From contig NZ_JAETGO010000035.1 of the NCBI RefSeq assembly GCF_016765695.1, positions 1 through 41,978 on the forward strand: a stretch of 41,978 nt of DNA, written 5' to 3'. The notes under the pieces are model-generated. The model searched no databases. It was given only the letters and a program-made list of their open reading frames with translations, and was not told the DNA's origin. Shown here piece after piece: positions 1,190 through 14,870 of this stretch. Both the position numbers and the translations under genes were made by a program. Within the stretch, counting starts at the first letter, position 1, and the number at the start of each line of letters is the position of its first letter. The stretch comes from Sporosalibacterium faouarense (GTDB lineage Bacteria > Bacillota > Clostridia > Tissierellales > VENL01).

Positions 1190-3127
1190 ATGGAACATAA
1201 ATATAAGTTAAGCATTTGTATGATTGTAAAAAATGAAGAAGAGAATATGCAAAGTTGTCTTGAGAGTATAAGTCCTTTGTTGGAAGACTCATTTGGTGAA
1301 TTGATTATTGTCGATACAGGTTCAACAGATGCTACCCCTCAAATAGCTAAGAGATACACTGATAAAGTATACTTTCATGAATGGAATAATAATTTTTCTG
1401 ATATGAGAAATATATCGTTATCATATGCAACAGGAGAATGGATTTTTATAATTGATGGTGATGAAGAGCTAGTAGATTGTGACAGATTAATTTACCTGTT
1501 AAATTCTATGGAAATTGAAAAATATAATACTATATCTATAATGACAAAAAACTACTTTTCTACAGATAATGATAAGGGATTTGCTTTAGCTACAGGGCTT
1601 AGAGTTTTTAGAAATGATGGAGAATTTCATTATGAAGGGTCTATCCACAATCAACCTAAGTTTAAGAACCCGATTTTAGGAGTAGACATTTACCTAGATC
1701 ACTATGGATATGCGGCAGATAGAAAAGAGGTAATGGAGAAAAAGTTTAAAAGGACTAGTACTATATTGAAGCAAGAATTAGAGAAAGACCCTGATAATAT
1801 ATATTATAGATATCAACTTGCCGTAAGCTATGATTCTCATCAGGAATATGATCTTGCATTAAATGAAGTTAGAAAAGCTTATGAAATTGCAAAGAAAAAG
1901 AAAGTTCTTGAACAAGGGCATGTCTATATATACGGATGTTATTCTAAAATAGCTTTTAATAATAAAGAATATATGGAAGCCATTAGAATTTGTCAAGAAG
2001 GATTAAAAATCCTTGAAGATAGTGTGGACTTAAGATATATATTAGCTAAATCTAAAAGTGAAATTGGTGAAAAGAAAGCTTCAGTTGAAGCATTTAGAGA
2101 CTATGTTGAATTTGCTGAAAAGTTTGATACTTTAGAAGTTTCAAAGAATCCATCTTTAGTAACCTTATATGCGTCTAGTAAGCATATTGATTTTGCCTAC
2201 ATGAATATAGGTAAAGATTATTTAATAAAAGAAAAATATCTAGAAGCCTATAAAACAATTAAAAAAATTCAAAATCATAAAACTAAGTCGATATTAATGA
2301 TAGAACCACTTATAAAGCTAAAAAAATTTAGTGAATTAAAATTTTATTATAAGCTAATAAAGAATGAAGATAAGCAATTATTAAACTTTATTAAACTATT
2401 GGAACAAGAAAAGAAGCAATTGTCAAAAGAGGAAAATGAAAAGATAGAGAAGCTACTTACAGGAAATAATACACATTACGAAATGCTAAATAAGATTAGA
2501 TGCTCAGAGAGTAAGATGAGAGAAAATCTTAAAAAGGAGTTTGCTAGACTGTATGATCTAAATAAGTTACCTGAATTTTATTGGAAAGTTCTTGAAATAA
2601 ATAAGAGCAATCTACGGTCAATGCTAACAATGTTTAAGAAAATTACAAATGCAAATCTGCAAGTATTTTTATCAGGATTAATAAATAATTCTAAAGAAAC
2701 GAGACAACAATTAAAAAACTATATTCTGAAAGAAGATATTAGAGAAAATGACTTTCATTCTAGTAGAATTTTTGTTTGTATTGCTGAGTCTTTAATGGAT
2801 TATAATGCTGACAAAAATTATGATAATGAAGAAGATACAATACAAGAAGATTTTGAAATATTCGAGATTTTTTTGAAAATAGGGTCAAATTATGTTAAAA
2901 ATCTATACAATGAAAGTAAATTCAAACTTCAGTGGCAGTTTATAGAAAATAGTCGTGATAAATTTTTTGTTTTAATGAATTTTGTAAATGAGGCTTTATC
3001 GAATAATAACGAAAAACTAGCAATCAAATATTTTAGAGATGCATATAGGATATATCCCAGTATGATTCGTTTTTTAAGGTATTATAAGAATCAAAACTTT
3101 TCAATAGATTTGATAAATGAAGAGTAA
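1190..3127 (+). CDS. GT2 glycosyltransferase with C-terminal TPR region, probable flagellin glycosyltransferase
   Basis: 645 residues. The N-terminus (about 5-120) is a GT-A fold family 2 glycosyltransferase: SICMIVKNEEENM, then VDTGSTDATPQI for nucleotide-sugar binding, and FIIDGDEEL carrying the metal-binding DxD-type motif. From about residue 200 it continues into TPR-like helical repeats and a long helical C-terminus with no membrane segment. GT2-TPR fusions are typical of glycosyltransferases beside Clostridia flagellin genes, where the TPR part is thought to bind the protein acceptor. GAGGTG precedes the ATG. It is the only glycosyltransferase in the island, suggesting a single sugar or a short glycan put directly on flagellin Ser/Thr. 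Function is inferred from family plus position. Confidence 0.88.
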   Translation: MEHKYKLSICMIVKNEEENMQSCLESISPLLEDSFGELIIVDTGSTDATPQIAKRYTDKVYFHEWNNNFSDMRNISLSYATGEWIFIIDGDEELVDCDRLIYLLNSMEIEKYNTISIMTKNYFSTDNDKGFALATGLRVFRNDGEFHYEGSIHNQPKFKNPILGVDIYLDHYGYAADRKEVMEKKFKRTSTILKQELEKDPDNIYYRYQLAVSYDSHQEYDLALNEVRKAYEIAKKKKVLEQGHVYIYGCYSKIAFNNKEYMEAIRICQEGLKILEDSVDLRYILAKSKSEIGEKKASVEAFRDYVEFAEKFDTLEVSKNPSLVTLYASSKHIDFAYMNIGKDYLIKEKYLEAYKTIKKIQNHKTKSILMIEPLIKLKKFSELKFYYKLIKNEDKQLLNFIKLLEQEKKQLSKEENEKIEKLLTGNNTHYEMLNKIRCSESKMRENLKKEFARLYDLNKLPEFYWKVLEINKSNLRSMLTMFKKITNANLQVFLSGLINNSKETRQQLKNYILKEDIRENDFHSSRIFVCIAESLMDYNADKNYDNEEDTIQEDFEIFEIFLKIGSNYVKNLYNESKFKLQWQFIENSRDKFFVLMNFVNEALSNNNEKLAIKYFRDAYRIYPSMIRFLRYYKNQNFSIDLINEE

Positions 3128-3300: not shown

Positions 3301-4815
3301 ATGAAAAAAAAAAGCAACATACAGGGAAAATTAAATGGATTAAAAGATAGAATTAAGTTATTAATAGAACAGGGGTTACTTGAACAAGCAATGGGAATTA
3401 TAATTCAATATGAAAAGGTAGTGCCTAGAGATGTAGAGATACATTCAATGAAAGCTGTCATTTATATGATGAGTAATAAACTTGTAGAAGCAGAAAGAAC
3501 TTTAAAAGAAGGGTTAATGATAGATAAGTATAATTTTGACATACTCTATAATTTAGGATATGTATATAGCTTATCTGGAAGATACTATGAAGCTATGACT
3601 TCATATTATCTAGCTAAGCTTGAGACTAAAGATTTGCTAAGTATTGAAGATATTCAACAAGAAATTATGAAGATATCTTGTAAAATTAATAATGGGTGTG
3701 AAGCTCAAAATAAGCGTATAGAAAAATTTCGATTATCATTCAAAACTAAAGTTATTTTAGTGGGTAATAAAGATCAAGTAAATGAAGTGAGAGAAGAATT
3801 TGATCATGATTTTGTGATTGTCCGCTGTATAGATTTTTTAAATTCAGAAATTAAAGCAACAGATATTAACTTTAGAAAAGAATTAAAGAATTTAGACTTT
3901 GATTATATAGTTTTATTAAGTAAAGAAGATGAAGAAATACAAAGGCACAAAGAAATATTGAATAGGGTTGGTATATTAGAAAAGAAAATTTTTGAATATC
4001 ATAAGTTCAATTTTAATTTTGTAATAGAGGGGTTTGACTATAAATTATTACAATCACTAAAAAATGACAAAGTTGAATTAATTACAACAGGTTTATCATA
4101 TGCAGAAGTTGGAGTAGACGGTAAATTTCTTGAACGAAATTCAATTAATATTGCCTTATCTAGCCAAGATTTATTTTATGACTTTGAATTTTTTAAATTT
4201 GTGTACAATTTTAAATATATAAAAGAGAATCTCAAATATGCAATTATAAATTTAGGATACTATAGTTTTGACTATGATCTATCTAGAACATTTGAAAGAA
4301 CTAGAATACATAGATATTATCCATTATTAAAAACCACTCATAACTATGATAATGAGCTTGGGATCAGACTCATTAATAAAATGTATCATAGAGAAGTAAG
4401 CTCCAAAGCTTACCTGTCTAGCAGAATCTTTAAATCAAATAAGGTACTGGATTCTTCTTGTTCAGAGAAAGGAAAGAAGTATGCAATGTATCATTCTAGA
4501 ATGAATAGACCAAAGATTGTTAATGAAAATAAAAAAATATTTGATGAATTTATTAATTTTCTAATAAATAATAATGTAAAACCTATTATTCTAGTATGTC
4601 CAGTAAGTCAATACTATTATAAATATTCTTCATCGGATCTAAAAGGGAGATTTTATAAAATTATAAATGAATTTAAAAGACGATATGATTTTCAAATTAT
4701 TGATTTATTTAAGTCTAGCATGTTTAATGATGAAGACTTTTGGGATGATTCTCACTTAAATAATGAAGGCGCCAAAAAACTAACTATCTTTTTAGAGGAA
4801 AATATTGAATGGTAG
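3301..4815 (+). CDS. TPR protein with C-terminal SGNH/DltD-like domain, putative acyl-transfer enzyme
   Basis: 504 residues, with no obvious signal peptide. Residues about 10-110 form TPR-like helical pairs. The C-terminal half has features of the SGNH/GDSL hydrolase-acyltransferase fold. These are a TGLSYAEVGVD segment with Ser266 as possible nucleophile (block I), an INLGYYSFDYD segment, ILVCPVSQYYYK, and FWDDSHLNNEGAKKL with the Asp482-x-x-His485 pair of block V. DltD and the alginate and peptidoglycan O-acetyltransferases share this layout. The next two genes are a carrier protein and an AMP-forming ligase, i.e. DltC- and DltA-like partners, so transfer of an acyl group to flagellin glycan is a reasonable guess. 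Lack of an export signal argues for cytoplasmic action, unlike DltD. The 172 nt upstream hold no convincing promoter. Confidence 0.7.
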   Translation: MKKKSNIQGKLNGLKDRIKLLIEQGLLEQAMGIIIQYEKVVPRDVEIHSMKAVIYMMSNKLVEAERTLKEGLMIDKYNFDILYNLGYVYSLSGRYYEAMTSYYLAKLETKDLLSIEDIQQEIMKISCKINNGCEAQNKRIEKFRLSFKTKVILVGNKDQVNEVREEFDHDFVIVRCIDFLNSEIKATDINFRKELKNLDFDYIVLLSKEDEEIQRHKEILNRVGILEKKIFEYHKFNFNFVIEGFDYKLLQSLKNDKVELITTGLSYAEVGVDGKFLERNSINIALSSQDLFYDFEFFKFVYNFKYIKENLKYAIINLGYYSFDYDLSRTFERTRIHRYYPLLKTTHNYDNELGIRLINKMYHREVSSKAYLSSRIFKSNKVLDSSCSEKGKKYAMYHSRMNRPKIVNENKKIFDEFINFLINNNVKPIILVCPVSQYYYKYSSSDLKGRFYKIINEFKRRYDFQIIDLFKSSMFNDEDFWDDSHLNNEGAKKLTIFLEENIEW

Positions 4816-4846
4816 TTATTAATATATAAAATAGAGGAGAGTATGT

Positions 4847-5083
4847 ATGAAAGAACTAGAAAGTATAAGGAGATTTATTACAGATAATTTAATCTTACAA
4901 GATGTAGAAATAGATTTAGATACAGAACTTTTTAATTCAGGACTTATAGATTCATTTGCACTTTTAGACTTAGTTTGCTATATAGAAGATGAATTCAATG
5001 TTAAAATTAAAGACTATGAGATAGTTGAAAATAATGCAAATACTGTAATAAAAATTGGAGATATGATAAAAGAAAGGTTATAA
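4847..5083 (+). CDS. Acyl/peptidyl carrier protein, DltC-like
   Basis: A 78-residue acidic four-helix carrier protein. The phosphopantetheine attachment site is in FNSGLIDSFALLDL, with Ser36 following Asp35 at the start of helix 2. It resembles DltC and stand-alone carriers of modification clusters more than the DSLD-type fatty-acid ACP. GAGGAG precedes the ATG. The AMP-forming ligase starts 25 nt downstream and the SGNH protein ends 31 nt upstream, so the three are surely one transcript. Likely role: hold an activated acyl or aminoacyl group as thioester for transfer onto a sugar or protein. The bound group cannot be read from the sequence. Confidence 0.9.
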   Translation: MKELESIRRFITDNLILQDVEIDLDTELFNSGLIDSFALLDLVCYIEDEFNVKIKDYEIVENNANTVIKIGDMIKERL

Positions 5084-5108
5084 AACTTAGATGATGAGGA
5101 GTCAAAAA

Positions 5109-6674
5109 ATGTTTAATATGGGTGAATTTATATGCCGAAATACAAGTAATGATATTGCATTGGTTGGTGTTAATAAAAATGGAGACCCAAAGAAATATAG
5201 TTATTTTGATTTAGATAAGTATTCTAATCGTGCCGCAAATATGTTAATTAGTATGGGAATAAAAAAGGGAGATAGGGTTGTTGTCTGTGCTGAAAAAAAT
5301 CCTTACTTAATATTTATGATAATCGGAATATTAAAGGTGGGTGCAATATATAGTCCAATATTTACTAGCTCTGGGACTGAATCTTTTAATCAGAAAATTG
5401 AAGACTGCAAGCCCAAAATAATAGTCACTCAGAAGTACTTACTAAAAAAGATGCAGTTTTTAACCAAGAGGAATAATCATATAAACATTATTATAATGGA
5501 TGAAGATATGGGAGACGTAGATTTACATTACTGTCAAGTTTTATCTATAAAAGAGCTGTCTAAATTTGACTATAATTTTGAAGACTATAGTACTTTAGAA
5601 AATGATATTGCCATAATACACTATACATCAGGTACTACTTCTAAGCCTAAAGGAGTGGTACATATACATAAAGCTATTAAAAGGTATAAGTATACTATGA
5701 GAGAAGTATTTGGATTATCAAAACAGGATATGTACTGGTGTACTGCCAACCATGCATGGGTTACAGGCTCTACATATGGAATTCTGGGTCCACTAAGCAT
5801 AGGAGCAACTACATTAGTATTGGAGCCGGGATATAGAGCAGCACATATTTTAGATGCATTAGAAAAATATAACATTAAAATATGGTATACAGCCCCAACT
5901 TTATTACGTATGCTAATGAGGGAGAAACATGAAGTCTTTGAGCAATTTGAAAATAATTACTTAAAAAATATTTATTGTGTAGGGGAACCACTTAATGTTG
6001 AAACAATTCAATGGGTAGATGAAAAATTTAGTATTATTCCCAGAGATACTTGGTTTCAAACAGAGACAGGTAGCATTATAATTGCTAACGGTGAAAAAAC
6101 TAAAGTTAAGTTCGGTTCTATGGGAAGGCCTTTGAATGATGTCGAAGTTACCATATTAGATGATAATTATAAACCAGTAGTTGGAAATGTCGCTGGGAAT
6201 CTATGCATAAAAAAGAATTGGGAATCTATGTTTATTGATTATTGGAATAATGAAGATGTATATAATGAAAAGTTTGAAGGTGAATGGTATATTACAGGTG
6301 ATATTGCTTATTGTGATGAAGATGGATATTACTGGTTCAAGTCAAGAGCAGATGAAATAATAAATACAGCTGGTCATCTAGTTAGTCCATTTGAAGTAGA
6401 AAATTCAATTATAAAGCATCCTTTAATTCAAGACGTTGCAGTATTTGGAGTTAAAGATAGTGTATTAGGAGAAAAAGTGGTAGCTTTTGTTATAATGAAG
6501 AATAATACTCAATTAACAAATTCAATAAAAATGCAAATTAAAAGAATCGTTAGACAAGAAGTTATGCCATTTGCAGTGCCTCAAAATATAACAAGAGTTA
6601 ATGAATTCCCTAAAACTAATAGTGGAAAAATTTCAAGGCGTACTCTTAGGAAAATGGAAGAGAGAGCCAATTGA
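5109..6674 (+). CDS. AMP-forming acyl ligase, acetyl-CoA synthetase-like
   Basis: 521-residue ANL-superfamily adenylating enzyme. Visible motifs are HYTSGTTSKPKG (P-loop), WVTGSTYGILGPLSIGATTL, DTWFQTETGS, the hinge region GEWYITGDIAYCDEDGYYWF, and PKTNSGKISRR with catalytic Lys507. The spacing and wording follow acetyl-CoA synthetases rather than DltA or long-chain ligases. One difference is that DTWWQTETG reads DTWF here, and the second Trp closes the acetate pocket in true Acs, so a somewhat larger acid is possible. I place the start at ATG 5109 because GAGGAG (5096-5101) lies 7 nt upstream; the ATG at 5091 would overlap that site. It presumably charges the adjacent carrier protein, though CoA as acceptor cannot be excluded. 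Confidence 0.87.
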   Translation: MFNMGEFICRNTSNDIALVGVNKNGDPKKYSYFDLDKYSNRAANMLISMGIKKGDRVVVCAEKNPYLIFMIIGILKVGAIYSPIFTSSGTESFNQKIEDCKPKIIVTQKYLLKKMQFLTKRNNHINIIIMDEDMGDVDLHYCQVLSIKELSKFDYNFEDYSTLENDIAIIHYTSGTTSKPKGVVHIHKAIKRYKYTMREVFGLSKQDMYWCTANHAWVTGSTYGILGPLSIGATTLVLEPGYRAAHILDALEKYNIKIWYTAPTLLRMLMREKHEVFEQFENNYLKNIYCVGEPLNVETIQWVDEKFSIIPRDTWFQTETGSIIIANGEKTKVKFGSMGRPLNDVEVTILDDNYKPVVGNVAGNLCIKKNWESMFIDYWNNEDVYNEKFEGEWYITGDIAYCDEDGYYWFKSRADEIINTAGHLVSPFEVENSIIKHPLIQDVAVFGVKDSVLGEKVVAFVIMKNNTQLTNSIKMQIKRIVRQEVMPFAVPQNITRVNEFPKTNSGKISRRTLRKMEERAN

Positions 6675-6705
6675 ATAAAGGGATAAATTATGTAAGGAGG
6701 CTTAT

Positions 6706-7317
6706 ATGTCAACAAAAATAATATACCCTAATGTAATCTTAGGTAAAAATTGCATAATAGAAGATTTTGTCATAATAGGTAAGCCTTCCTCTGATGAAGA
6801 TGAAGATTTATCTACTGTGATAGGAGACAATGCAGTAATTAGATCCCATACTGTTATATATGCTGGTAATAAAATTGGACATAACTTTCAAACGGGACAT
6901 AATGTCATGATTAGGGAAAACAATAAGATAGGAAATAACGTAAGTGTTGGAACAGGGTCATGCATTGAGCATCACATTAAAATACGAGATAATGTAAGAA
7001 TTCATTCTCAAGTATTTATTCCAGAGTATACTACATTAGAAGAGGAATGTTGGATTGGACCTAATGTAGTATTGACTAACGCTAGGTATCCAAGATCAAA
7101 AAATGTAAAAGAAAAACTAAAAGGACCAATTATATCTGAAAAAGCTAAAATAGGAGGAAATAGTACAATTCTTCCTGGTATAAAGGTGGGAAAGAACTCT
7201 TTAGTAGGAGCTGGAAGTGTCGTTGTAAAGGATATTGGTGACGGCAAAGTTGTGGCAGGAAATCCAGCAAGAGTAATAAAGGAAATTGATGATATACAAG
7301 AATATAATCAGAGGTGA
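6706..7317 (+). CDS. Left-handed beta-helix sugar N-acyltransferase, WbpD/WlbB-like
   Basis: 203 residues of hexapeptide repeats (GKNCII, GNKIGHNFQTGHNVMI, GNNVSVGTGSCI and others) with a loop LTNARYPRSKN and the terminal signature GSVVVKDIGDGKVVAGNPAR. This is the trimeric left-handed beta-helix acyltransferase fold that uses acetyl-CoA or another acyl donor. WbpD/WlbB acetylate the 3-amino group of UDP-GlcNAc3NA, and the neighbours here are the aminotransferase, 6-dehydrogenase and oxidoreductase of that kind of route. The stop codon overlaps the ribosome binding site of the next gene, showing translational coupling to the aminotransferase. Because an acyl carrier and ligase are encoded just upstream, the donor could also be a carrier-bound acyl group rather than acetyl-CoA. 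Confidence 0.88.
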   Translation: MSTKIIYPNVILGKNCIIEDFVIIGKPSSDEDEDLSTVIGDNAVIRSHTVIYAGNKIGHNFQTGHNVMIRENNKIGNNVSVGTGSCIEHHIKIRDNVRIHSQVFIPEYTTLEEECWIGPNVVLTNARYPRSKNVKEKLKGPIISEKAKIGGNSTILPGIKVGKNSLVGAGSVVVKDIGDGKVVAGNPARVIKEIDDIQEYNQR

Positions 7318-7322
7318 TTCAT

Positions 7323-8447
7323 TTGAAAATACCATTCATGGACTTATCAGGAAGTTATCCTCAAATATATGATGAAGTGATGTTGAAAATAAAAAAGCAT
7401 ATTGATAATACTAGGTTTATTGGCGGAGAAGATATTAAGAAATTTGAAAAGAACTTCTCAGAGTACTGCAATGCTGAAAACACAATTTCCTGTGGAAATG
7501 GAACGGACGCTTTAATAATAAGCCTAAAAGCATTAGGAATAGGACCAGGAGATACTGTAATTACTGTTCCGAATACTTTTATAGCAACTGGTGAAGCTGT
7601 AACAGCTGTGGGTGCACAAGTTGATTTTGTTGATATAGAAGAAAAGACATATACAATGGATCCACAAAAATTGAAAGAATATCTACACAAGAACTCAAAT
7701 AAAAAAAATATTAAAGCAATCATTCCAGTACATATTTATGGGCAGATGTGTGATATGGAAAGATTAATGAAAATTGCAGAAGAATATAACTTATCAGTAG
7801 TTGAAGATTCCTCTCAAGCTCATGGAGCTAAATTTAAAGGTAAGGGACCTGGAGAATACGGAGATATTGCTACATTTTCATTTTATCCTGGAAAAAACTT
7901 AGGTGCCTTTGGAGACGGTGGAGCTATCGTATGTAATGATAAAGAACTTGCTGAAAAAATTCGAAAATATGCTAATCATGGTAGAGTAGATAAATATACT
8001 CATCAATTTGAGGGATATAACAGTAGATTAGATTCAATTCAAGCAAGTGTTTTGGATATCAAACTCAAGCATTTAGATGGGTGGAATGAGTTAAGAAGTA
8101 AAAAAGCTAAGTACTTTAGCGAGAAGCTCAAAGGCGTAAACTGTATTATTCCTTATACTGATAAAGATATATACAGACATGTTTATCATCTTTATGTTAT
8201 ACAGTCAGATAATAGAGACGAATTAAGAGAATTTCTTAAAGAAAAAGGGATATCTACAGGAATACACTATCCCTTACCTTTGCACCTTCAAGAGGCATAT
8301 AAGTATTTAGGTTATAAAGAAGGGGACTTTCCAACTACGGAAAGGATTGCGAAAAGAATAATAAGCTTACCATTTTGGCCTGAAATCAGGTATGAAGAAA
8401 TAGATGAGGTTGTTAATTCAATTAAATTATTTTTAAATAATAAATAG
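7323..8447 (+). CDS. DegT/DnrJ/EryC1 PLP-dependent sugar aminotransferase, WbpE/WlbC-like
   Basis: 374 residues, full length for the family. Motifs: PFMDLSGSYPQI at the N-terminus, SCGNGTDALIISLKALGIG, VEDSSQAHGAKFKGK, and FYPGKNLGAFGDGG with Lys191 as the PLP Schiff-base lysine, then GYNSRLDSIQASVL. These enzymes transaminate 3- or 4-keto nucleotide sugars with glutamate. Next to a WbpB-like 3-dehydrogenase and a WbpD-like acyltransferase, the expected reaction is 3-amination of a UDP-3-keto-uronic acid. The start is placed at TTG 7323, 6 nt after GAGGTG at 7311-7316. The upstream GTG at 7314 lies inside that site. Confidence 0.92.
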   Translation: MKIPFMDLSGSYPQIYDEVMLKIKKHIDNTRFIGGEDIKKFEKNFSEYCNAENTISCGNGTDALIISLKALGIGPGDTVITVPNTFIATGEAVTAVGAQVDFVDIEEKTYTMDPQKLKEYLHKNSNKKNIKAIIPVHIYGQMCDMERLMKIAEEYNLSVVEDSSQAHGAKFKGKGPGEYGDIATFSFYPGKNLGAFGDGGAIVCNDKELAEKIRKYANHGRVDKYTHQFEGYNSRLDSIQASVLDIKLKHLDGWNELRSKKAKYFSEKLKGVNCIIPYTDKDIYRHVYHLYVIQSDNRDELREFLKEKGISTGIHYPLPLHLQEAYKYLGYKEGDFPTTERIAKRIISLPFWPEIRYEEIDEVVNSIKLFLNNK

Positions 8448-8467
8448 TAGTGATGGAGGTGTAATCT

Positions 8468-9790
8468 ATGCATAGTATTGCGATTATTGGAACGGGATAT
8501 GTAGGACTAGTTACTGGAGCATGTTTATCAGATTTCGGTCTTAAAGTAACTTGTGTTGATAGAAGTGAAGATAAAATAGAAAAATTGAATCAAGGAGTAA
8601 TACCAATTTATGAGCCAGGATTGGAATATATTGTAGAAAGAAATTTTTATTATAAAAGGTTAGACTTTACCTTAGATATAGAGAAGACTGTAAAAGACAA
8701 TGATGTAATATTTATAGCTGTTGGAACACCCCCTCAAGGAGATGGTAATGCTGATTTACAGCATGTAAAATATGTGGCTCAACAAATAGGACAAAGTATG
8801 AATAGGTATAAAGTAATTGTAAATAAAAGTACAGTACCTGTAGGAACAGGAAAACTAGTTGAACAAATTATAAAAGATGAATTAAAAAAGAGAAAAGTAG
8901 ATTATGGGTTTGATGTAGTATCAAATCCAGAGTTCTTAAGAGAAGGCTCAGCTGTTCATGATTTTACTCATCCTGATAGAGTCGTAATAGGAACAGAATC
9001 CAATAAGGCAAGAAAAATTATGAGAGAAGTATATAGAGTACTGAATATTAATGAAGTTCCGTTTGTAGAGACAAATCTAGAAACTGCTGAGTTAATTAAA
9101 TATGCTTCAAATGCATTCCTTGCAATGAAAATTACATTTATAAATGAGATGGCTAATCTATGTGAAAATGTAGGAGCAAAGGTACAAGAAGTTGCAAGAG
9201 CAATGGGAAGAGACGGAAGGATATCATCTAAGTTCCTTCACCCTGGTCCAGGATATGGAGGGAGCTGTTTTCCTAAGGACACGAGAGCTTTAGTAGAAAT
9301 AGGGAAAAAGTATAATTCCCCAATTACACTTATTGAAACGACAATTGCAGCTAATGAAAGACAGAAAAACAAGATGGTAGAAAAGATACAAAATGAATTA
9401 AATGACCTTAAGGGCAAAACAATAGGAATATTAGGAGTTGCTTTTAAAGCTAATACAGATGATACTAGAGAATCTTCTGCATTAACCATAATGGAACAAC
9501 TAGCCAATAAAGGAGCTAAGATAAAGGTATATGACCCTTGTGCCATGGAAGAGGCTAAATGGAGGCTTAAGGAAATTGAAGATAAGGTTGAGTATTGTGA
9601 GGATGAGTATGAGGCAGTTAATGATTGTAATGCATTAGTGATTATTACTGAGTGGAATCAATTTAGGAATCTAGACTTAAGTAGGATAAAAGAGAGCTTA
9701 AAAGAGCCGTACTTTTTTGATTTTAGGAATATTTATTCAAGAGACAATATAGAAAAAAATGGATTTATATATATAGGAGTAGGACAATAG
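8468..9790 (+). CDS. UDP-sugar 6-dehydrogenase (UDP-glucose/UDP-GlcNAc type)
   Basis: 440-residue NAD-dependent enzyme oxidising the C6 alcohol of a UDP-hexose to the uronic acid. The N-terminal Rossmann motif is GTGYVGLVTGACLSDFG. The central part has NPEFLREGSAVHDFTHPDRV, and the active-site loop is PGPGYGGSCFPKDTRAL with catalytic Cys267. The GSCFPKD loop is the form seen in UDP-glucose dehydrogenases (Ugd/TuaD). UDP-GlcNAc and UDP-ManNAc dehydrogenases (WbpA, WecC) usually read GHCIxVDP. So the substrate may be UDP-glucose although the neighbours look like the WbpA-WbpB-WbpE-WbpD set. A GGAGGTG site precedes the ATG, 20 nt after the aminotransferase stop. Confidence 0.93.
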   Translation: MHSIAIIGTGYVGLVTGACLSDFGLKVTCVDRSEDKIEKLNQGVIPIYEPGLEYIVERNFYYKRLDFTLDIEKTVKDNDVIFIAVGTPPQGDGNADLQHVKYVAQQIGQSMNRYKVIVNKSTVPVGTGKLVEQIIKDELKKRKVDYGFDVVSNPEFLREGSAVHDFTHPDRVVIGTESNKARKIMREVYRVLNINEVPFVETNLETAELIKYASNAFLAMKITFINEMANLCENVGAKVQEVARAMGRDGRISSKFLHPGPGYGGSCFPKDTRALVEIGKKYNSPITLIETTIAANERQKNKMVEKIQNELNDLKGKTIGILGVAFKANTDDTRESSALTIMEQLANKGAKIKVYDPCAMEEAKWRLKEIEDKVEYCEDEYEAVNDCNALVIITEWNQFRNLDLSRIKESLKEPYFFDFRNIYSRDNIEKNGFIYIGVGQ

Positions 9791-9821
9791 CTATTAAAGT
9801 TTAAATGATAGGGGTGACATC

Positions 9822-10946
9822 ATGAAAAAGCTCAGCTTTGCAATAATAGGATGCGGTAGAATATCTTATAAGCATATAGATGCAATAATTGAAAATAATG
9901 ATTTGGCAAGACTTATTGCAACTTGTGACATTGTTATTGATAAAGCACATGCCAGATCGAAAGAATACTTAGAAAAGCTTCAAAAGAAAATTACAGACAA
10001 GGATTGTGATTTAACTACTCCACTAGTCTGTGACGATTATAAGTATATCTTGGCAAATAAGGATATAGATATAGTGTCAATTTGTACGGAATCTGGCAAA
10101 CATGCAGAAATTGCTATTGAAGCATTAAAATCTGGCAAACATGTTTTAGTGGAGAAGCCAATGGCACTATCTACAAAAGATGCTGATGAGATGATTTATT
10201 TGGCAAAATCTAAAAACTTAAAGTTAGGTGTTTGTCATCAGAATAGATTCAATCCTCCCATTCAAGAGCTAAGACAAGCTATAGATGAAGGAAGATTTGG
10301 TAAAATCTTTGCGGTAACAGCTAGGATATTATGGAATAGAAATAAAGAGTATTATACTCAGGCATCATGGCGAGGTACATTTGACCAAGATGGCGGTTGC
10401 CTGATGAATCAATGTATTCATAATATAGACCTATTACAATGGATGGTTGGACAACCGATAAAAGAAATTAATGGATTAGTAAATAATTATACACACCCAT
10501 ATATTCAAGCAGAGGATTATGGTAGCATTCAGCTAGAGTTTATAGATGGAACTATTGGCAACATAGAAGGAACAGTAGTTACTTATCCACAAAATTTGGA
10601 AGAAACATTAACTGTTTTAGGGGAAAAAGGAACTGTTGTTATCGGAGGAAAAGCAGTTAACGAAATTCTAGTATGGAATTTTGAGGATAGAAAAGATGAT
10701 TTGAATAATGTGCTACAGAGCTTTGATAATAAAATTGAAAATATATATGGAAATGGACATATTCCTTTATATACTGATTTCATGAATAGTATAAAAGAAG
10801 ATACTGAACCACTAATTAATGGCAAAGAAGGGAAGATAGCTATGTCTATTATTCTTCATTCTTATTTATCAAGTAAATATAAAAAGAGAGTGAAGTTTGA
10901 TATTAATAATATTATGCTAACAAAGCAAGGAGTTAAGGAGATATAA
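9822..10946 (+). CDS. Gfo/Idh/MocA oxidoreductase, WbpB/WlbA-like sugar 3-dehydrogenase
   Basis: 374 residues. The N-terminal Rossmann domain has AIIGCGRISYKH, then the family signature VLVEKPMAL with Lys112 in the catalytic position. QNRFNPPIQELRQAIDEGRFG follows, and the C-terminal sheet has SWRGTFDQDGGCLMNQCIHN, whose His is the usual second catalytic residue. The WRGT..DGG..NQ.IHN.DLL signature fits WlbA/WbpB, which oxidise C3 of UDP-GlcNAcA before transamination. It is the last gene of the island, with AGGGGTG before the ATG. After its stop comes a 170-bp A/T-rich gap that ends in the sigma-D promoter of flaG. Confidence 0.88.
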   Translation: MKKLSFAIIGCGRISYKHIDAIIENNDLARLIATCDIVIDKAHARSKEYLEKLQKKITDKDCDLTTPLVCDDYKYILANKDIDIVSICTESGKHAEIAIEALKSGKHVLVEKPMALSTKDADEMIYLAKSKNLKLGVCHQNRFNPPIQELRQAIDEGRFGKIFAVTARILWNRNKEYYTQASWRGTFDQDGGCLMNQCIHNIDLLQWMVGQPIKEINGLVNNYTHPYIQAEDYGSIQLEFIDGTIGNIEGTVVTYPQNLEETLTVLGEKGTVVIGGKAVNEILVWNFEDRKDDLNNVLQSFDNKIENIYGNGHIPLYTDFMNSIKEDTEPLINGKEGKIAMSIILHSYLSSKYKKRVKFDINNIMLTKQGVKEI

Positions 10947-11054: not shown

Positions 11055-11081
11055 TAAACTATTGTAATTATTTGCCGATAA
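11055..11081 (+). promoter_or_regulatory. Sigma-D (sigma-28) flagellar promoter for flaG-fliD-fliS
   Basis: TAAA (11055-11058), a spacer of exactly 15 nt, then GCCGATAA (11074-11081). This matches the sigma-D consensus TAAA-N15-GCCGATAT with one difference. It lies 35 nt before the flaG start and shows that late flagellar genes resume here, with a transcript of their own. Confidence 0.88.
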
Positions 11082-11116
11082 TGTTTATAGAAGAATATTT
11101 GATTGGAGGCGCAATT

Positions 11117-11488
11117 ATGAATTTAGGAAGCATTGATATGTCAGTAAATGGAAACATACGGCAGGCTCAGGCTCAGCCTCAGCAGAATACTGTACATAAT
11201 AGAAAAGAGCAAAAAGGAAACGCTCCTAAAGAAGTTACGGTTTCTCTTCATGGTTCACAACCAAGTGAAGAGAAAATAATTAAAGCAATTGAATCGGCAA
11301 ATAAGAAGTTTGAAGTATACGATAGAAAATTAAAATTTTCAGTACATGAAAAAACTAATTCAATAATTGTAAAAATAGTTGATTCAAATACTGACGAAGT
11401 GATAAGAGAGATTCCACCGGAAAAAATATTGGACATGGTTGCCAATTTATTAGAAATGGCAGGAATCATAGTGGACGAAAAGGTTTAG
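11117..11488 (+). CDS. flaG: FlaG family flagellar protein
   Basis: 123 residues. The N-terminal third is polar and Gln-rich. The C-terminal half is the FlaG domain: LKFSVHEKTNSIIVKIVD, then VIREIPPEKILDMVANLLEM. FlaG (YvyC in B. subtilis) affects filament length and sits just before fliD in many Gram-positives, as here. The start is ATG 11117 with TTGGAGG at 11103-11109. An earlier in-frame start at 11072 is ruled out because it overlaps the sigma-D -10 element. fliD begins 31 nt downstream. Confidence 0.93.
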   Translation: MNLGSIDMSVNGNIRQAQAQPQQNTVHNRKEQKGNAPKEVTVSLHGSQPSEEKIIKAIESANKKFEVYDRKLKFSVHEKTNSIIVKIVDSNTDEVIREIPPEKILDMVANLLEMAGIIVDEKV

Positions 11489-11519
11489 TAAGAATGATAT
11501 TTGATAGGAGGAGAAAATA

Positions 11520-13979
11520 ATGTCTGATATGCTTAGAATTACTGGAATGGCAACTGGAATGGATACAGAATCTATAATTAAACAGTTAATGAGTGTAGAA
11601 TACAGTAGAGTAGATTCTGTAAAACAAAAAAAAGAATACGTCGAGTGGCAAACTGACGCATATAGAGAAATGACAAATCTCTTGAGGGGATTTAAGGACG
11701 AATACTTTAATATGTTAAATCCAAGTACGAACATGATGTCATCAAGTACCTTTGCAGCTTTTTCTACTTCAACGCAGGTAGGAGGAATAGACAGTAATGT
11801 TGTTACTGTTAAAGCAACTGGGTCAGCTAATGTTGGAACTCATACTATTAACAATATTAAGTTAGCTCAAAAAGCTTTATGGAGTAGTTCATCTTCAGTT
11901 TCAGATGTAATGACAGGGAATGCTATTAATTTTTCTAATTTAAAAGAAGGTAAATCCTTCAATATAACTCTAGATGGAAATACTAAAACTATAACTTTGA
12001 ATAGTACAGCTGCTGGAGCTACAACAGCAACTGGATTAGCCACAGAGTTACAAAGTTTAGTTAACGATGCTTTTGGAAGTGGAAGTATAGATATCTCTGG
12101 TAATGACGGAACAGGTACATTGAGTTTTCAGGCTAGTGGTCATACTTTAAATATTGAGAGTGCTTCACATACTTATTTAAGTGACTTAGGGCTAAACCAA
12201 AACCAAACGAATTCAATTACTGGTCAAGAACTAGATTTTTCTAGTGCAATTGATATTAGTGGGAATATAAAAATAGATGTAAATGGAACTGAAAAAGATG
12301 TTTCTATTGGTATAACTGGAGCCAGTACTATAGGGAGTTTTGTTACACAGCTTCAAACTGACTTGGATGTAGCTCTTGGAAATAATGTTGTGGAAGTAGT
12401 TAATGATGGGGATAGGGTAAAATTAGTATCTTATAATACTTCCGATGAAATAACAATTTTGTCAGGAGATACTCCAAATTCTATTGGTGACATTGGATTT
12501 GCCAGTGGACAGAAAATTAATAAACTTGAAGGTAATGTGAACTTAACTGCATCAGATTTAGGCAAAGAAATGGATATATTTGCAGATGGAACACAATATC
12601 ATATTGATTTAACTCAAGACTATACTGATATAGCTAGTTTAACAAGTGCTATTAATTCTCAGCTTTCAAGCCAAGGTGCTACTTTTACTGTATCAGATGG
12701 CGGTAGCGGAAATTTGATACTTAGTGGTACGGCTGGTCAAGAGATAAAAGTGGCTAATAGTACTGAAACCGTTGTAGATGATTTAGGATTCGATAATATT
12801 AGTAAAAATGTAATAGATTTAAAACTAAGTCTAAATGATTTAAACTTTGGGACAGATACTGTATTTAATAGTGGTAAAGTTGAGTTTCAGATTAATGATA
12901 CAAATTTTTCTTTTGATGAAACTGACTCCTTACAATACGTCATCAATCAGATAAATAGTAGTGATGCAGGTGTTACGTTAAGTTATAGTAGCGTATCTGA
13001 TAAGTTTGTATTACAAGCTGATAATGAAGGTGCCATGAACGATATATCATTAGGAGATTTAAATGGAACGAACTTTCTTAATGGTTCACTAAATTTAAAT
13101 CAGGTTACGGAAGGAACTGATGCGCAATTCACATTAGATGGTGTAGCTACTACTAGAAGTTCTAATAATTTTACAATAGATGGAGTTGAATATACCCTAA
13201 ACACTGAATATGATCCTAATGATACAGAAGGTTTAACTGACATATCTGTTAATGTAAATGCGGATCCAGATGAAGTATTTGATACTGTTAAGAAATTTGT
13301 AGACAAATATAATGAAGTAATATCTGAAATAAATTCTAAGCTCACAGAAGAGAAGTTTTATGATTATAAACCTTTAACGGAAGTTCAAAAGGGAGAAATG
13401 TCAGAAAAGGAAATAGAATTGTGGGAAGAAAAGGCTAAGAGTGGTATGTTAAGAAGTGATTCAATTCTTAGAAGTATTGTTAGCGATATGAGGAATGCCC
13501 TTTATGATGGAGTGGATAATGTTGGGATAAGATTATTTGACATTGGAATAACAACTAGTTCCAACTATAGGGATAGAGGGAAGCTAATAATAAATGAAGA
13601 TAAACTTAAAGAAGCACTTTCTAATAATTCTCAAGAAATTATGCAACTGTTTACCAATAAGGGTGATATGTACGGTGAAAAAGGAATCGCTAGTAAACTT
13701 AATGATATAATTGATAAAAATATTAGCACAACAAGAGGCGATGATGAGCTAAAAGGTAGATTGCTTGAAAAGGCAGGAATCGAAGGAGATACATCAGCAG
13801 TTAATAATATTTTGTTCTCTAAAATTCAGAACTATGATGAAATGATTAATGGACTACAAAGTGATTTAGCTGATAAAGAAGAATATTACTATAGTATGTT
13901 TGCAAGACTTGAGACCGCTATGGCTGAGATGAATTCTCAATCATCTTGGTTAGCATCACAATTTGGTGGAGGAATGTAA
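11520..13979 (+). CDS. fliD: Flagellar filament cap protein FliD (hook-associated protein 2), enlarged
   Basis: 819 residues, against about 500 in B. subtilis. The N-terminal FliD_N domain (MLRITGMATGMDTESIIKQL, VKQKKEYVEWQTDAYREM) and the C-terminal FliD_C domain (FDTVKKFVDKYNEVISEIN to the final coiled coil ADKEEYYYSMFARLETAM) are both intact. The extra length is in the middle. From about residue 133 there are four successive modules of roughly 95-105 residues (starting near 133, 236, 340 and 436). Each has a beta-rich 'DGxxxxI' segment, a helix resembling LQxxINxxL, and an ending like DLGL, DIGF or DLGF. These look like repeated flagellin_IN-type surface domains. FliD caps the growing filament and assists flagellin folding. 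AGGAGGAG precedes the ATG. Confidence 0.96.
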   Translation: MSDMLRITGMATGMDTESIIKQLMSVEYSRVDSVKQKKEYVEWQTDAYREMTNLLRGFKDEYFNMLNPSTNMMSSSTFAAFSTSTQVGGIDSNVVTVKATGSANVGTHTINNIKLAQKALWSSSSSVSDVMTGNAINFSNLKEGKSFNITLDGNTKTITLNSTAAGATTATGLATELQSLVNDAFGSGSIDISGNDGTGTLSFQASGHTLNIESASHTYLSDLGLNQNQTNSITGQELDFSSAIDISGNIKIDVNGTEKDVSIGITGASTIGSFVTQLQTDLDVALGNNVVEVVNDGDRVKLVSYNTSDEITILSGDTPNSIGDIGFASGQKINKLEGNVNLTASDLGKEMDIFADGTQYHIDLTQDYTDIASLTSAINSQLSSQGATFTVSDGGSGNLILSGTAGQEIKVANSTETVVDDLGFDNISKNVIDLKLSLNDLNFGTDTVFNSGKVEFQINDTNFSFDETDSLQYVINQINSSDAGVTLSYSSVSDKFVLQADNEGAMNDISLGDLNGTNFLNGSLNLNQVTEGTDAQFTLDGVATTRSSNNFTIDGVEYTLNTEYDPNDTEGLTDISVNVNADPDEVFDTVKKFVDKYNEVISEINSKLTEEKFYDYKPLTEVQKGEMSEKEIELWEEKAKSGMLRSDSILRSIVSDMRNALYDGVDNVGIRLFDIGITTSSNYRDRGKLIINEDKLKEALSNNSQEIMQLFTNKGDMYGEKGIASKLNDIIDKNISTTRGDDELKGRLLEKAGIEGDTSAVNNILFSKIQNYDEMINGLQSDLADKEEYYYSMFARLETAMAEMNSQSSWLASQFGGGM

Positions 13980-13999
13980 TCTTTAAGGAGGTAATATAT

Positions 14000-14389
14000 A
14001 TGGCAATGAGTAATCCTTATTCACAATATAAACAGAATTCAATTATGACTGCATCACCTCAAGAACTAAATATTATGTTATATAAAGGAGCAATGAAATT
14101 CATTAAGCAATCAATAATAGCTATTGATAAAAAAGAAATTGAAGTAGCTCATAAAAGTAACATTAGGGCTCAGGATATATTTATTCACTTTATGTCAATT
14201 GTCGATACAAATTATGAGGTTGGAAAAAACCTGTACAGTCTTTATGATTATATGCAAGATAGGTTACAGGAAGGAAATATAAAAAAAGACATTGAAATAT
14301 TACAAGAAGTCTATGATATGACTAATGAGTTAAAAGAAACTTGGGAAGAAGCAATGCAAATTACAAAAAAGAATAAGGTGAATATATAG
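14000..14389 (+). CDS. fliS: Flagellin export chaperone FliS
   Basis: 129-residue helical protein with the FliS hallmarks: NPYSQYKQNSIMTASPQELNI at the N-terminus, MLYKGAMKFIKQSIIAI and the second helix pair around ILQEVYDMTNELKETWEEA. It binds the C-terminal helix of flagellin in the cytoplasm and prevents premature polymerisation. AAGGAGG at 13985-13991 fixes the start at 14000, 20 nt after the fliD stop. An in-frame upstream extension would run into fliD and is not needed. Confidence 0.95.
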   Translation: MAMSNPYSQYKQNSIMTASPQELNIMLYKGAMKFIKQSIIAIDKKEIEVAHKSNIRAQDIFIHFMSIVDTNYEVGKNLYSLYDYMQDRLQEGNIKKDIEILQEVYDMTNELKETWEEAMQITKKNKVNI

Positions 14390-14390
14390 C

Positions 14391-14870
14391 ATGCAAGATA
14401 TAGAAAATGATTTAAGTCCTTTAATTCAATTACTAGAAGCAAAGTTAAATCTATTAGATGAAATATTAAAATTTACCCATAAACAAACAGAAGTGTTGCA
14501 GAGCCAGGAAATAGAAAGATTGGATCATTTAATAAAAAGTAAACAAAAAAGAATAGATAAGATAGATAGGCTTGATAAAGCTTTTAATAAGCAATTTGCA
14601 GGGATAAAGAAAAAATATGGTGTTGAAGAAATAGCAGAATTAGATATTGATAAGAGTCTAGTATCTGTACTTAAATCTGTTACAAAAAAGATTCAGAATA
14701 TAATTCATGCTATTTATGATATTGAGCAAGTTAATAAGGGATTAATTAATAAGAACTATAACGATGTTAAATCTAGACTTAAGAATATCAAGAAAGGTAA
14801 AAAACTTACTTCAAGTTATTATAAGCAGAGTACTCAAACCGATGGATACTTTATTGATCGTAAAAAGTAA
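14391..14870 (+). CDS. FlgN/FliT-like flagellar chaperone
   Basis: 159 residues, entirely helical and coiled-coil-like, beginning 1 nt after the fliS stop. The leading helix (LIQLLEAKLNLLDEILKFTHKQTEVL) followed by a lysine-rich helix pair fits the FlgN superfamily, whose members bind hook-associated proteins before export. In B. subtilis the gene in this slot is fliT, the FliD chaperone. By position this is the FliT equivalent and by sequence feel it is closer to FlgN, so I give no symbol. The last 20 residues are polar and probably disordered. A terminator follows. Confidence 0.78.
   Translation: MQDIENDLSPLIQLLEAKLNLLDEILKFTHKQTEVLQSQEIERLDHLIKSKQKRIDKIDRLDKAFNKQFAGIKKKYGVEEIAELDIDKSLVSVLKSVTKKIQNIIHAIYDIEQVNKGLINKNYNDVKSRLKNIKKGKKLTSSYYKQSTQTDGYFIDRKK

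Follow-up and report, generated by a model that had tools for sequence, protein, structure and literature searches.

How could a set of genes resembling the Dlt machinery, which attaches D-alanine to teichoic acids, serve a purpose beside a flagellin gene? The question is raised by a stretch of 41,978 nucleotides from Sporosalibacterium faouarense (contig NZ_JAETGO010000035.1, positions 1 to 41,978 of the forward strand; hereafter, the window), in which three adjacent genes encode a DltD-like SGNH protein, a DltC-like carrier protein and an AMP-forming ligase. The answer we put forward, tentatively and at slightly under an even chance, is that they form a soluble Dlt-like acyl relay, which dispenses with DltB and DltX and acts in the cytoplasm on flagellin or on the glycan it carries. 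Namely, we infer that the ligase would adenylate a short carboxylic acid and attach it, in thioester linkage, to the phosphopantetheine arm borne by Ser36 of the carrier, that the SGNH protein would dock on flagellin prior to export through its tetratricopeptide repeat (TPR) module, and that its Ser266 would take the acyl group directly from the carrier and transfer it to a hydroxyl group, either on the glycan bound to flagellin or on the flagellin protein. Since donor and acceptor would both be cytoplasmic, no relay of the kind provided by a membrane-bound O-acyltransferase (MBOAT) and DltX would be needed. The genes in question and their relevant parts are as follows.

3301-4815, + strand: TPR-SGNH protein of 504 amino acids, a candidate acyltransferase (PF04914 match, catalytic triad, no hydrophobic anchor)
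3328-3675, + strand: its TPR module, residues 10-125, the candidate flagellin-docking part (strong matches to it associate with flagellin)
4021-4812, + strand: its SGNH domain, residues 241-504, assigned to a soluble family (alignment A2, hhalign comparison with an MBOAT-partnered group, motifs)
4847-5083, + strand: DltC-like carrier protein of 78 amino acids, with Ser36 at 4952-4954 (PF00550; its best matches in the PDB are DltC chains)
5091-6674, + strand: divergent AMP-forming ligase of 527 amino acids, similar to acetyl-CoA synthetase (Acs), with the catalytic Lys513 at 6627-6629 (AMP-binding, AMP-binding_C)

The three genes lie on the same strand, with gaps of 31 nt between the SGNH and carrier genes and 7 nt between the carrier and ligase genes. 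An earlier, sequence-only reading of this DNA had named the trio and its key residues, most of which are indeed in place: S266 (codon 4096-4098), D482 (4744-4746) and H485 (4753-4755) of the SGNH protein, as well as S36 of the carrier, are present, while the lysine that it put at residue 507 of the ligase is a proline, the lysine of the PKTNSGK motif being K513, the catalytic one by analogy with Acs. The same reading gave the SGNH protein TPRs and no signal peptide. In agreement with this, several TPR models give weak matches near residues 54-104, those of TPR_19 and TPR_17 lying barely above their cut-offs, and a 19-residue Kyte-Doolittle scan finds no strongly hydrophobic segment or membrane anchor, the best mean being 1.33 for the whole protein and 1.01 within its first 60 residues. 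The Pfam DltD model PF04914 matches the C-terminal part only (residues 414-490, 24.6 bits against a gathering cut-off of 22.7). The SGNH gene is present in a single copy in the source genome, which gives no DltD match at E <= 1e-5, and the six-frame translation of the window gives no MBOAT match.

In order to place the SGNH domain, we used a five-member alignment of such domains (A2) as a search profile in four overlapping sets of genomes (249 from the order, 398 from the phylum, and two sets, of 198 and 146, each centred on a relative); three of these searches listed matches at E <= 1e-12 only, so that weak relatives are under-sampled there. Strong, soluble members (E <= 1e-20) number ten, including that of the window (G000, G509, G516, G022, G222, G755, G829, G783, G397 and G904). 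An MBOAT gene adjoins the SGNH gene in all nine of the weaker relatives (G456, G511, G402, G421, G636, G634, G630, G668 and G965), and in 10 of 11 if one adds G018, which has it, and G443, which does not and whose SGNH match lies in a frame with stops. Beside the ten soluble members, in contrast, no MBOAT was detected save for a chance-level fragment (E 0.008, 57 amino acids) in the flank of G022, the G516 gene lying on a 3 kb contig where neighbours cannot be judged. The division into strong and weak members by profile score is partly built in, as A2 was made from soluble members, but the MBOAT neighbourhood played no part in making it. What is more, peak hydrophobicity ranges from 0.80 to 1.79 in nine soluble proteins and from 1.85 to 2.63 in nine MBOAT-partnered ones, the latter being anchored in the membrane. 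By profile comparison, the soluble domains are homologous to the MBOAT-partnered group: the two profiles align over 260 columns (hhalign, 99.6%, E 1.5e-24), and the profile of the latter group retrieves DltD in the PDB (E 5e-4). Finally, flagellin lies within 10 kb of six of the ten soluble members (the window at 2.6, G022 at 0.6, G509 at 2.8, G755 at 3.6, G783 at 6.6 and G829 at 8.2 kb), and in G222 some 19 kb away on the same contig.

Is the trio more than a chance arrangement? We believe so, because the same three kinds of gene cluster beside flagellin in a second genome of the order, G509. There, a contig of 7.6 kb carries on one strand a flagellin gene (245-1138), an open reading frame (ORF) that by eye appears hemerythrin-like, a chemoreceptor gene and then the following trio.

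3932-5665, same strand as flagellin: SGNH protein
5658-7172, same strand as flagellin: ligase
7174-7386, same strand as flagellin: carrier protein

The G509 carrier has a DSL motif and scores 18.7 bits with PF00550, just below the cut-off of 20.8. The ligase of this genome belongs to the non-ribosomal peptide synthetase (NRPS) A-domain or DltA kind (TIGR01733 at 313.5 bits, cut-off 317.4; DltA PRK04813 at 280 bits) and is 22% identical to that of the window. In other words, judging from gene content, the set of SGNH protein, carrier and ligase is kept at flagellin while the type of ligase differs. The proposal of the sequence-only reading that a cytoplasmic, Dlt-like logic operates at this flagellin locus is strengthened by the second trio, as well as by the tendency of the TPR module to occur near flagellin genes.

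Concerning the latter, the module of residues 10-125 also occurs, among ten proteins scanned, on GT2 and GT1/GT4 glycosyltransferases, a methyltransferase, a CDP-glycerol phosphotransferase and ATP-grasp proteins. With E <= 1e-10 as the limit for a strong match, 16 of the 20 genomes that match strongly have the module 10 kb or less from flagellin, versus 1 of 14 weak matches (Fisher p 5.9e-5), a count that excludes the window, Clostridium ragsdalei and second matches at G117, G095, G359, G279 and G116, and in which flagellin was called at more than 80 bits in one part and at E < 1e-5 in the other; the strong matches lacking a nearby flagellin are those in G279, G231, G418 and G516 (a 4.9 kb contig). 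This distribution fits a putative docking of the window's SGNH protein on flagellin, and it is possible that the module is a general flagellin-docking one. According to the excerpts available for the papers cited here and below, FlmG binds flagellins through its TPR domain, which is required for their modification (PMC7591256), and TPR-bearing GT2 proteins are regarded as flagellin glycosyltransferases in Clostridium (PMC13317340). TPR-fused enzymes were seen at L041 3917-5674, L048 9902-12430, L049 9429-11456, L056 6778-10857, L116 3893-6850 and L121 9826-12069, among others.

What would the carrier be charged with? It matches PF00550 at 31.3 bits (cut-off 20.8), with S36 within LIDSFALL, and its best NCBIfam model is DltC PRK05087, at 34 bits with a cut-off of 68. 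The ligase matches AMP-binding at 236.7 and AMP-binding_C at 71.5 bits and, as the sequence-only reading correctly held, is similar to Acs and not to DltA: its closest NCBIfam model is the acetate--CoA ligase PRK04319, and DltA is not among the best 25. A search of 199 genomes gave best matches with 39% identity to it and, at E <= 1e-60, no further match in the source genome. If, as we assume, its pocket residues have the roles of their counterparts in Salmonella Acs, the pocket fits a small acid: V224, T225 and V297 are as in most Acs relatives, and the Trp position is taken by F322, likewise in 3 of 11 relatives (those on the + strand among 20 loci, L087-L106). Among the 175 columns invariant in these 11 relatives, themselves 50-90% identical mutually, the ligase deviates at 65, five of which are gaps in it. 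Loading of the carrier by this ligase is plausible on such evidence, and the acyl group is likeliest a small non-amino acid. Acetate may be the substrate. D-alanylation is less likely, given that the window ligase is Acs-like and that the G509 ligase has Thr201 at a position where an Asp presumably contacts the substrate amine in amino-acid A-domains.

That said, a number of findings weigh against the relay proposed here. The ligase has an acetate--CoA ligase as its closest model, although it falls short of the curated PRK04319 score (522.3 bits, cut-off 729), and it keeps R488, aligned with an Arg that we take to contact CoA in Salmonella Acs. Carrier and ligase were found with only two of the ten soluble members, and the SGNH protein may use acyl-CoA; for the remaining eight, the DNA fetched around each yielded no ligase, while the absence of a carrier there is weak evidence, as the queries were single sequences and that of the window carrier missed the carrier of G509. 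Among nine soluble proteins, a clear TPR module is present only in that of the window (the match in G022 is weak, E 0.07), and Pfam detects no TPR in the SGNH proteins of G509, G755 and G829, so that TPR docking would not be a trait of the family. What is more, no flagellin lies within 20 kb in G397 and G904, the peak hydrophobicity of the G829 protein (1.79) is close to the MBOAT-partnered range, and in a tree of SGNH domains, with 7 of 15 inner branches open, soluble and MBOAT-partnered proteins form no clean clades. In this tree, the trios of the window and of G509 are neither grouped nor set apart.

A rival explanation, unlikely in our view, is that the ligase is an acyl-CoA synthetase and that the SGNH protein O-acylates the flagellin glycan from acyl-CoA, the carrier having a side role or none. 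A ligase nearest to acetate--CoA ligases would be expected in that case, as would the failure to detect ligase or carrier near 8 of the 10 soluble SGNH proteins. However, the carrier gene sits between the SGNH and ligase genes in the window and adjoins the ligase gene in G509, the ligase in G509 belongs to the NRPS-A/DltA type, which loads carriers, and the 65 deviating columns set the window ligase apart from Acs. Soluble SGNH proteins lacking a carrier may use acyl-CoA.

Could the SGNH protein, on the other hand, be a hydrolase, that is, an esterase trimming the flagellin glycan or a thioesterase clearing the carrier? Characterised SGNH proteins are mostly hydrolases, and in a weak fold comparison TesA-type thioesterases and esterases tie with PatB. 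Namely, AlphaFold2 run without an alignment gave a low mean predicted local distance difference test (pLDDT) score both with the entire protein (42.7) and with the SGNH domain by itself (45.1); with the domain model of pLDDT 45.1, VIA-align 2 put PatB on top (Z 8.6), esterases within 1 Z and DltD (3bma) at Z 5.8, while Foldseek gave no PDB match at E <= 0.001 for this low-confidence model and a sequence search of the PDB with the SGNH profile gave nothing convincing. The conserved residues argue otherwise, and we consider a hydrolase distinctly unlikely. The S266/D482/H485 triad is conserved in 9 of 9 aligned soluble homologues, and S288 aligns five residues past N283, at the block II Gly position of typical SGNH hydrolases, which we assign by alignment and by what we take to be the TesA numbering. 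This position is Ser in 7 and Ala in 2 of 9 soluble members, and all 9 have an aromatic residue where the block III Asn would be (Y321). In PatB, Ser or Asn replaces the block II Gly, which the authors, in the available part of the paper, tie to transferase behaviour (PMC12148441). The substitution is a pointer to a transferase, though no proof of one, and the kinship with MBOAT-partnered proteins likewise speaks against a hydrolase. Two further residues, Q289 and D290, are shared by all 9 of the soluble members compared, and D290 is found in 0 of 9 MBOAT-partnered proteins.

The remaining explanations concern the neighbouring genes, which are arranged as follows.

2-736, + strand: flagellin (Flagellin_N and Flagellin_C), truncated by the left end of the window, 2.6 kb upstream of the SGNH gene
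1190-3127, + strand: GT2 glycosyltransferase with TPRs, likely a flagellin glycosyltransferase (PF00535 and TPR models)
6706-7317, + strand: beta-helix (hexapeptide) acyltransferase, likely a sugar N-acetyltransferase using acetyl-CoA (Pfam/NCBIfam; homologue in G117 without a detected trio)
7314-10946, + strand: sugar-nucleotide genes for a DegT aminotransferase (from 7314), a UDP-sugar dehydrogenase (from 8468) and a Gfo/Idh oxidoreductase (from 9822) (Pfam/NCBIfam)
11072-14870: FlaG, FliD, FliS and FlgN, downstream of the sugar genes

The sugar genes resemble those of the WbpA/B/E/D pathway, which leads to a 2,3-diamino uronic acid, with their equivalog models (NCBIfam) scoring under cut-off. 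An ORF of 108 amino acids between the flagellin and glycosyltransferase genes (849-1175) has no significant Pfam match.

The sequence-only reading had left the use of the charged carrier to either the SGNH protein or the product of the gene at 6706, a hexapeptide protein with a left-handed beta-helix. If ligase and carrier fed the latter for N-acylation of an amino sugar, the SGNH protein would have another role. The genes are adjacent in one run, and carrier-dependent N-acylation of a flagellin sugar, viosamine, is known from Pseudomonas syringae, as the accessible text of PMC3927599 has it. Yet a cluster beside flagellin in G117 contains a beta-helix enzyme 66%, a DegT protein 63% and a Gfo protein 39% identical to those of the window, and neither ligase nor carrier was detected in the 20 kb fetched there (the carrier scan being of low sensitivity), whereas no hexapeptide-enzyme gene was found on the 7.6 kb trio contig of G509. 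As this type of enzyme seems to manage without the trio in G117, the SGNH protein stays the likelier user of the carrier; the beta-helix enzyme seems, from these gene contents, a poor candidate, and we regard this explanation as improbable. Quite improbable, finally, is that the trio acylates a non-flagellin target (a nucleotide sugar, for instance, or a glycan of the cell surface) and owes its location to clustering of glycan genes, for although TPRs are general protein-binding modules and G397 and G904 have their SGNH genes in glycan regions, the TPR module tracks flagellin loci across unrelated catalytic domains.

A few observations on the soluble proteins deserve mention in their own right. 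The SGNH gene of G783 (L078 9541-10362), between flagellin and FliD, is decayed, with several stops, which suggests that the modification was lost there. In G516 (L043 1-2886), an open-ended protein of 961 residues has a TPR-like start and also contains a kinase-like stretch, a methyltransferase and a soluble SGNH domain. The SGNH proteins at L045 3932-5665 and L076 9527-10663 match the Fibrobacter lipoprotein family TIGR02171 in its C-terminal portion, at 27.9 and 41.7 bits, respectively (cut-off 544). In G829 (L077 9513-16804), the SGNH gene lies between flagellin and FliD among GNAT, methyltransferase, LicD, nucleotidyltransferase and aminotransferase genes, a set reminiscent of the phospho-N-methylthreonine glycan on the type A flagellin of Clostridioides difficile. 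No relative of the SGNH domain was found in the phage collection, nor any relative among the plasmids or viral contigs searched, and the genome contig scan gave one locus, a TPR match in C. ragsdalei.

How does the proposed relay compare with known systems? In the Dlt system (DltA, DltB, DltC, DltX and DltD), D-alanine moves from DltC through DltB and DltX to DltD, the acceptor being outside the cell, according to the available text of PMC12148441. The window set shares with it a ligase, a DltC-like carrier and a DltD-like SGNH domain, but has an Acs-like ligase, a TPR module and a flagellin locus, with no MBOAT in the window; DltD is membrane-anchored, whereas the SGNH protein here has the triad and no hydrophobic anchor. 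As for MBOAT-SGNH O-acyltransferases such as PatA/PatB (PMC12148441, in excerpt), the SGNH domain of the window is homologous to MBOAT-partnered ones and has Ser at the block II Gly position, but the protein studied here is soluble, lacks an MBOAT partner and comes with its own carrier and ligase. The sequence-only reading had considered carrier-dependent acylation in a flagellin sugar island unusual, a view that is not supported: acyl carriers, ligases and acyl enzymes are reported in such islands of P. syringae, with its viosamine, and of Enterobacteriaceae (PMC3927599, PMC4875605). These islands thus share with the window an acyl carrier and acyl-activating or fatty-acid enzymes, but their acyl genes are fatty-acid-synthase-like (VioS, VioR), LuxC/LuxE or CaiC, and the accessible portions of both papers mention no SGNH protein. 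FlmG and the TPR-bearing flagellin glycosyltransferases (PMC7591256, PMC13317340, in excerpt) share an N-terminal TPR region on a cytoplasmic flagellin-modifying enzyme; the catalytic part here is, in contrast, an SGNH domain, and its flagellin binding is putative. The type B flagellin glycan of C. difficile, with its taurine-containing peptidyl cap, is, like the product proposed here, a Gram-positive flagellin glycan with an acyl or aminoacyl cap and with a putative ligase and acyltransferase in its island, but these are an ATP-grasp ligase and a PF02388 acyltransferase, and neither a carrier nor an SGNH protein is mentioned in the available parts of the reports (PMC5207245, PMC5207246). In the open literature searched (titles and the beginnings of abstracts), no flagellin island was described as containing a protein of the SGNH or DltD-like kind; a few of the papers listed contain both of the words flagellin and SGNH (PMC8286568, PMC10977779, PMC12345273, PMC11796379). 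In other words, flagellin islands containing acyl carriers and ligases have been described before, and an SGNH protein that bears TPRs, lacks an MBOAT and comes with a carrier and ligase of its own was not met in that literature.

More broadly, and with somewhat greater reserve than for the relay in the window itself, one may envisage a membrane-free version of the Dlt relay, in which a TPR-held SGNH protein has lost its MBOAT partner and takes the acyl group from a dedicated carrier, while the ligase is exchangeable (Acs-like or NRPS-A-like) and the acyl group can vary by lineage. Should this be the case, SGNH acyltransferases can do without an MBOAT relay and draw acyl groups from a carrier, Dlt chemistry is separable from membrane topology, and the trio offers a soluble system for testing carrier-to-SGNH transfer. 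The TPR module, for its part, may mark flagellin-modifying enzymes, be they glycosyl-, methyl- or phosphotransferases or SGNH proteins, in many Bacillota-like genomes of the searched phylum.

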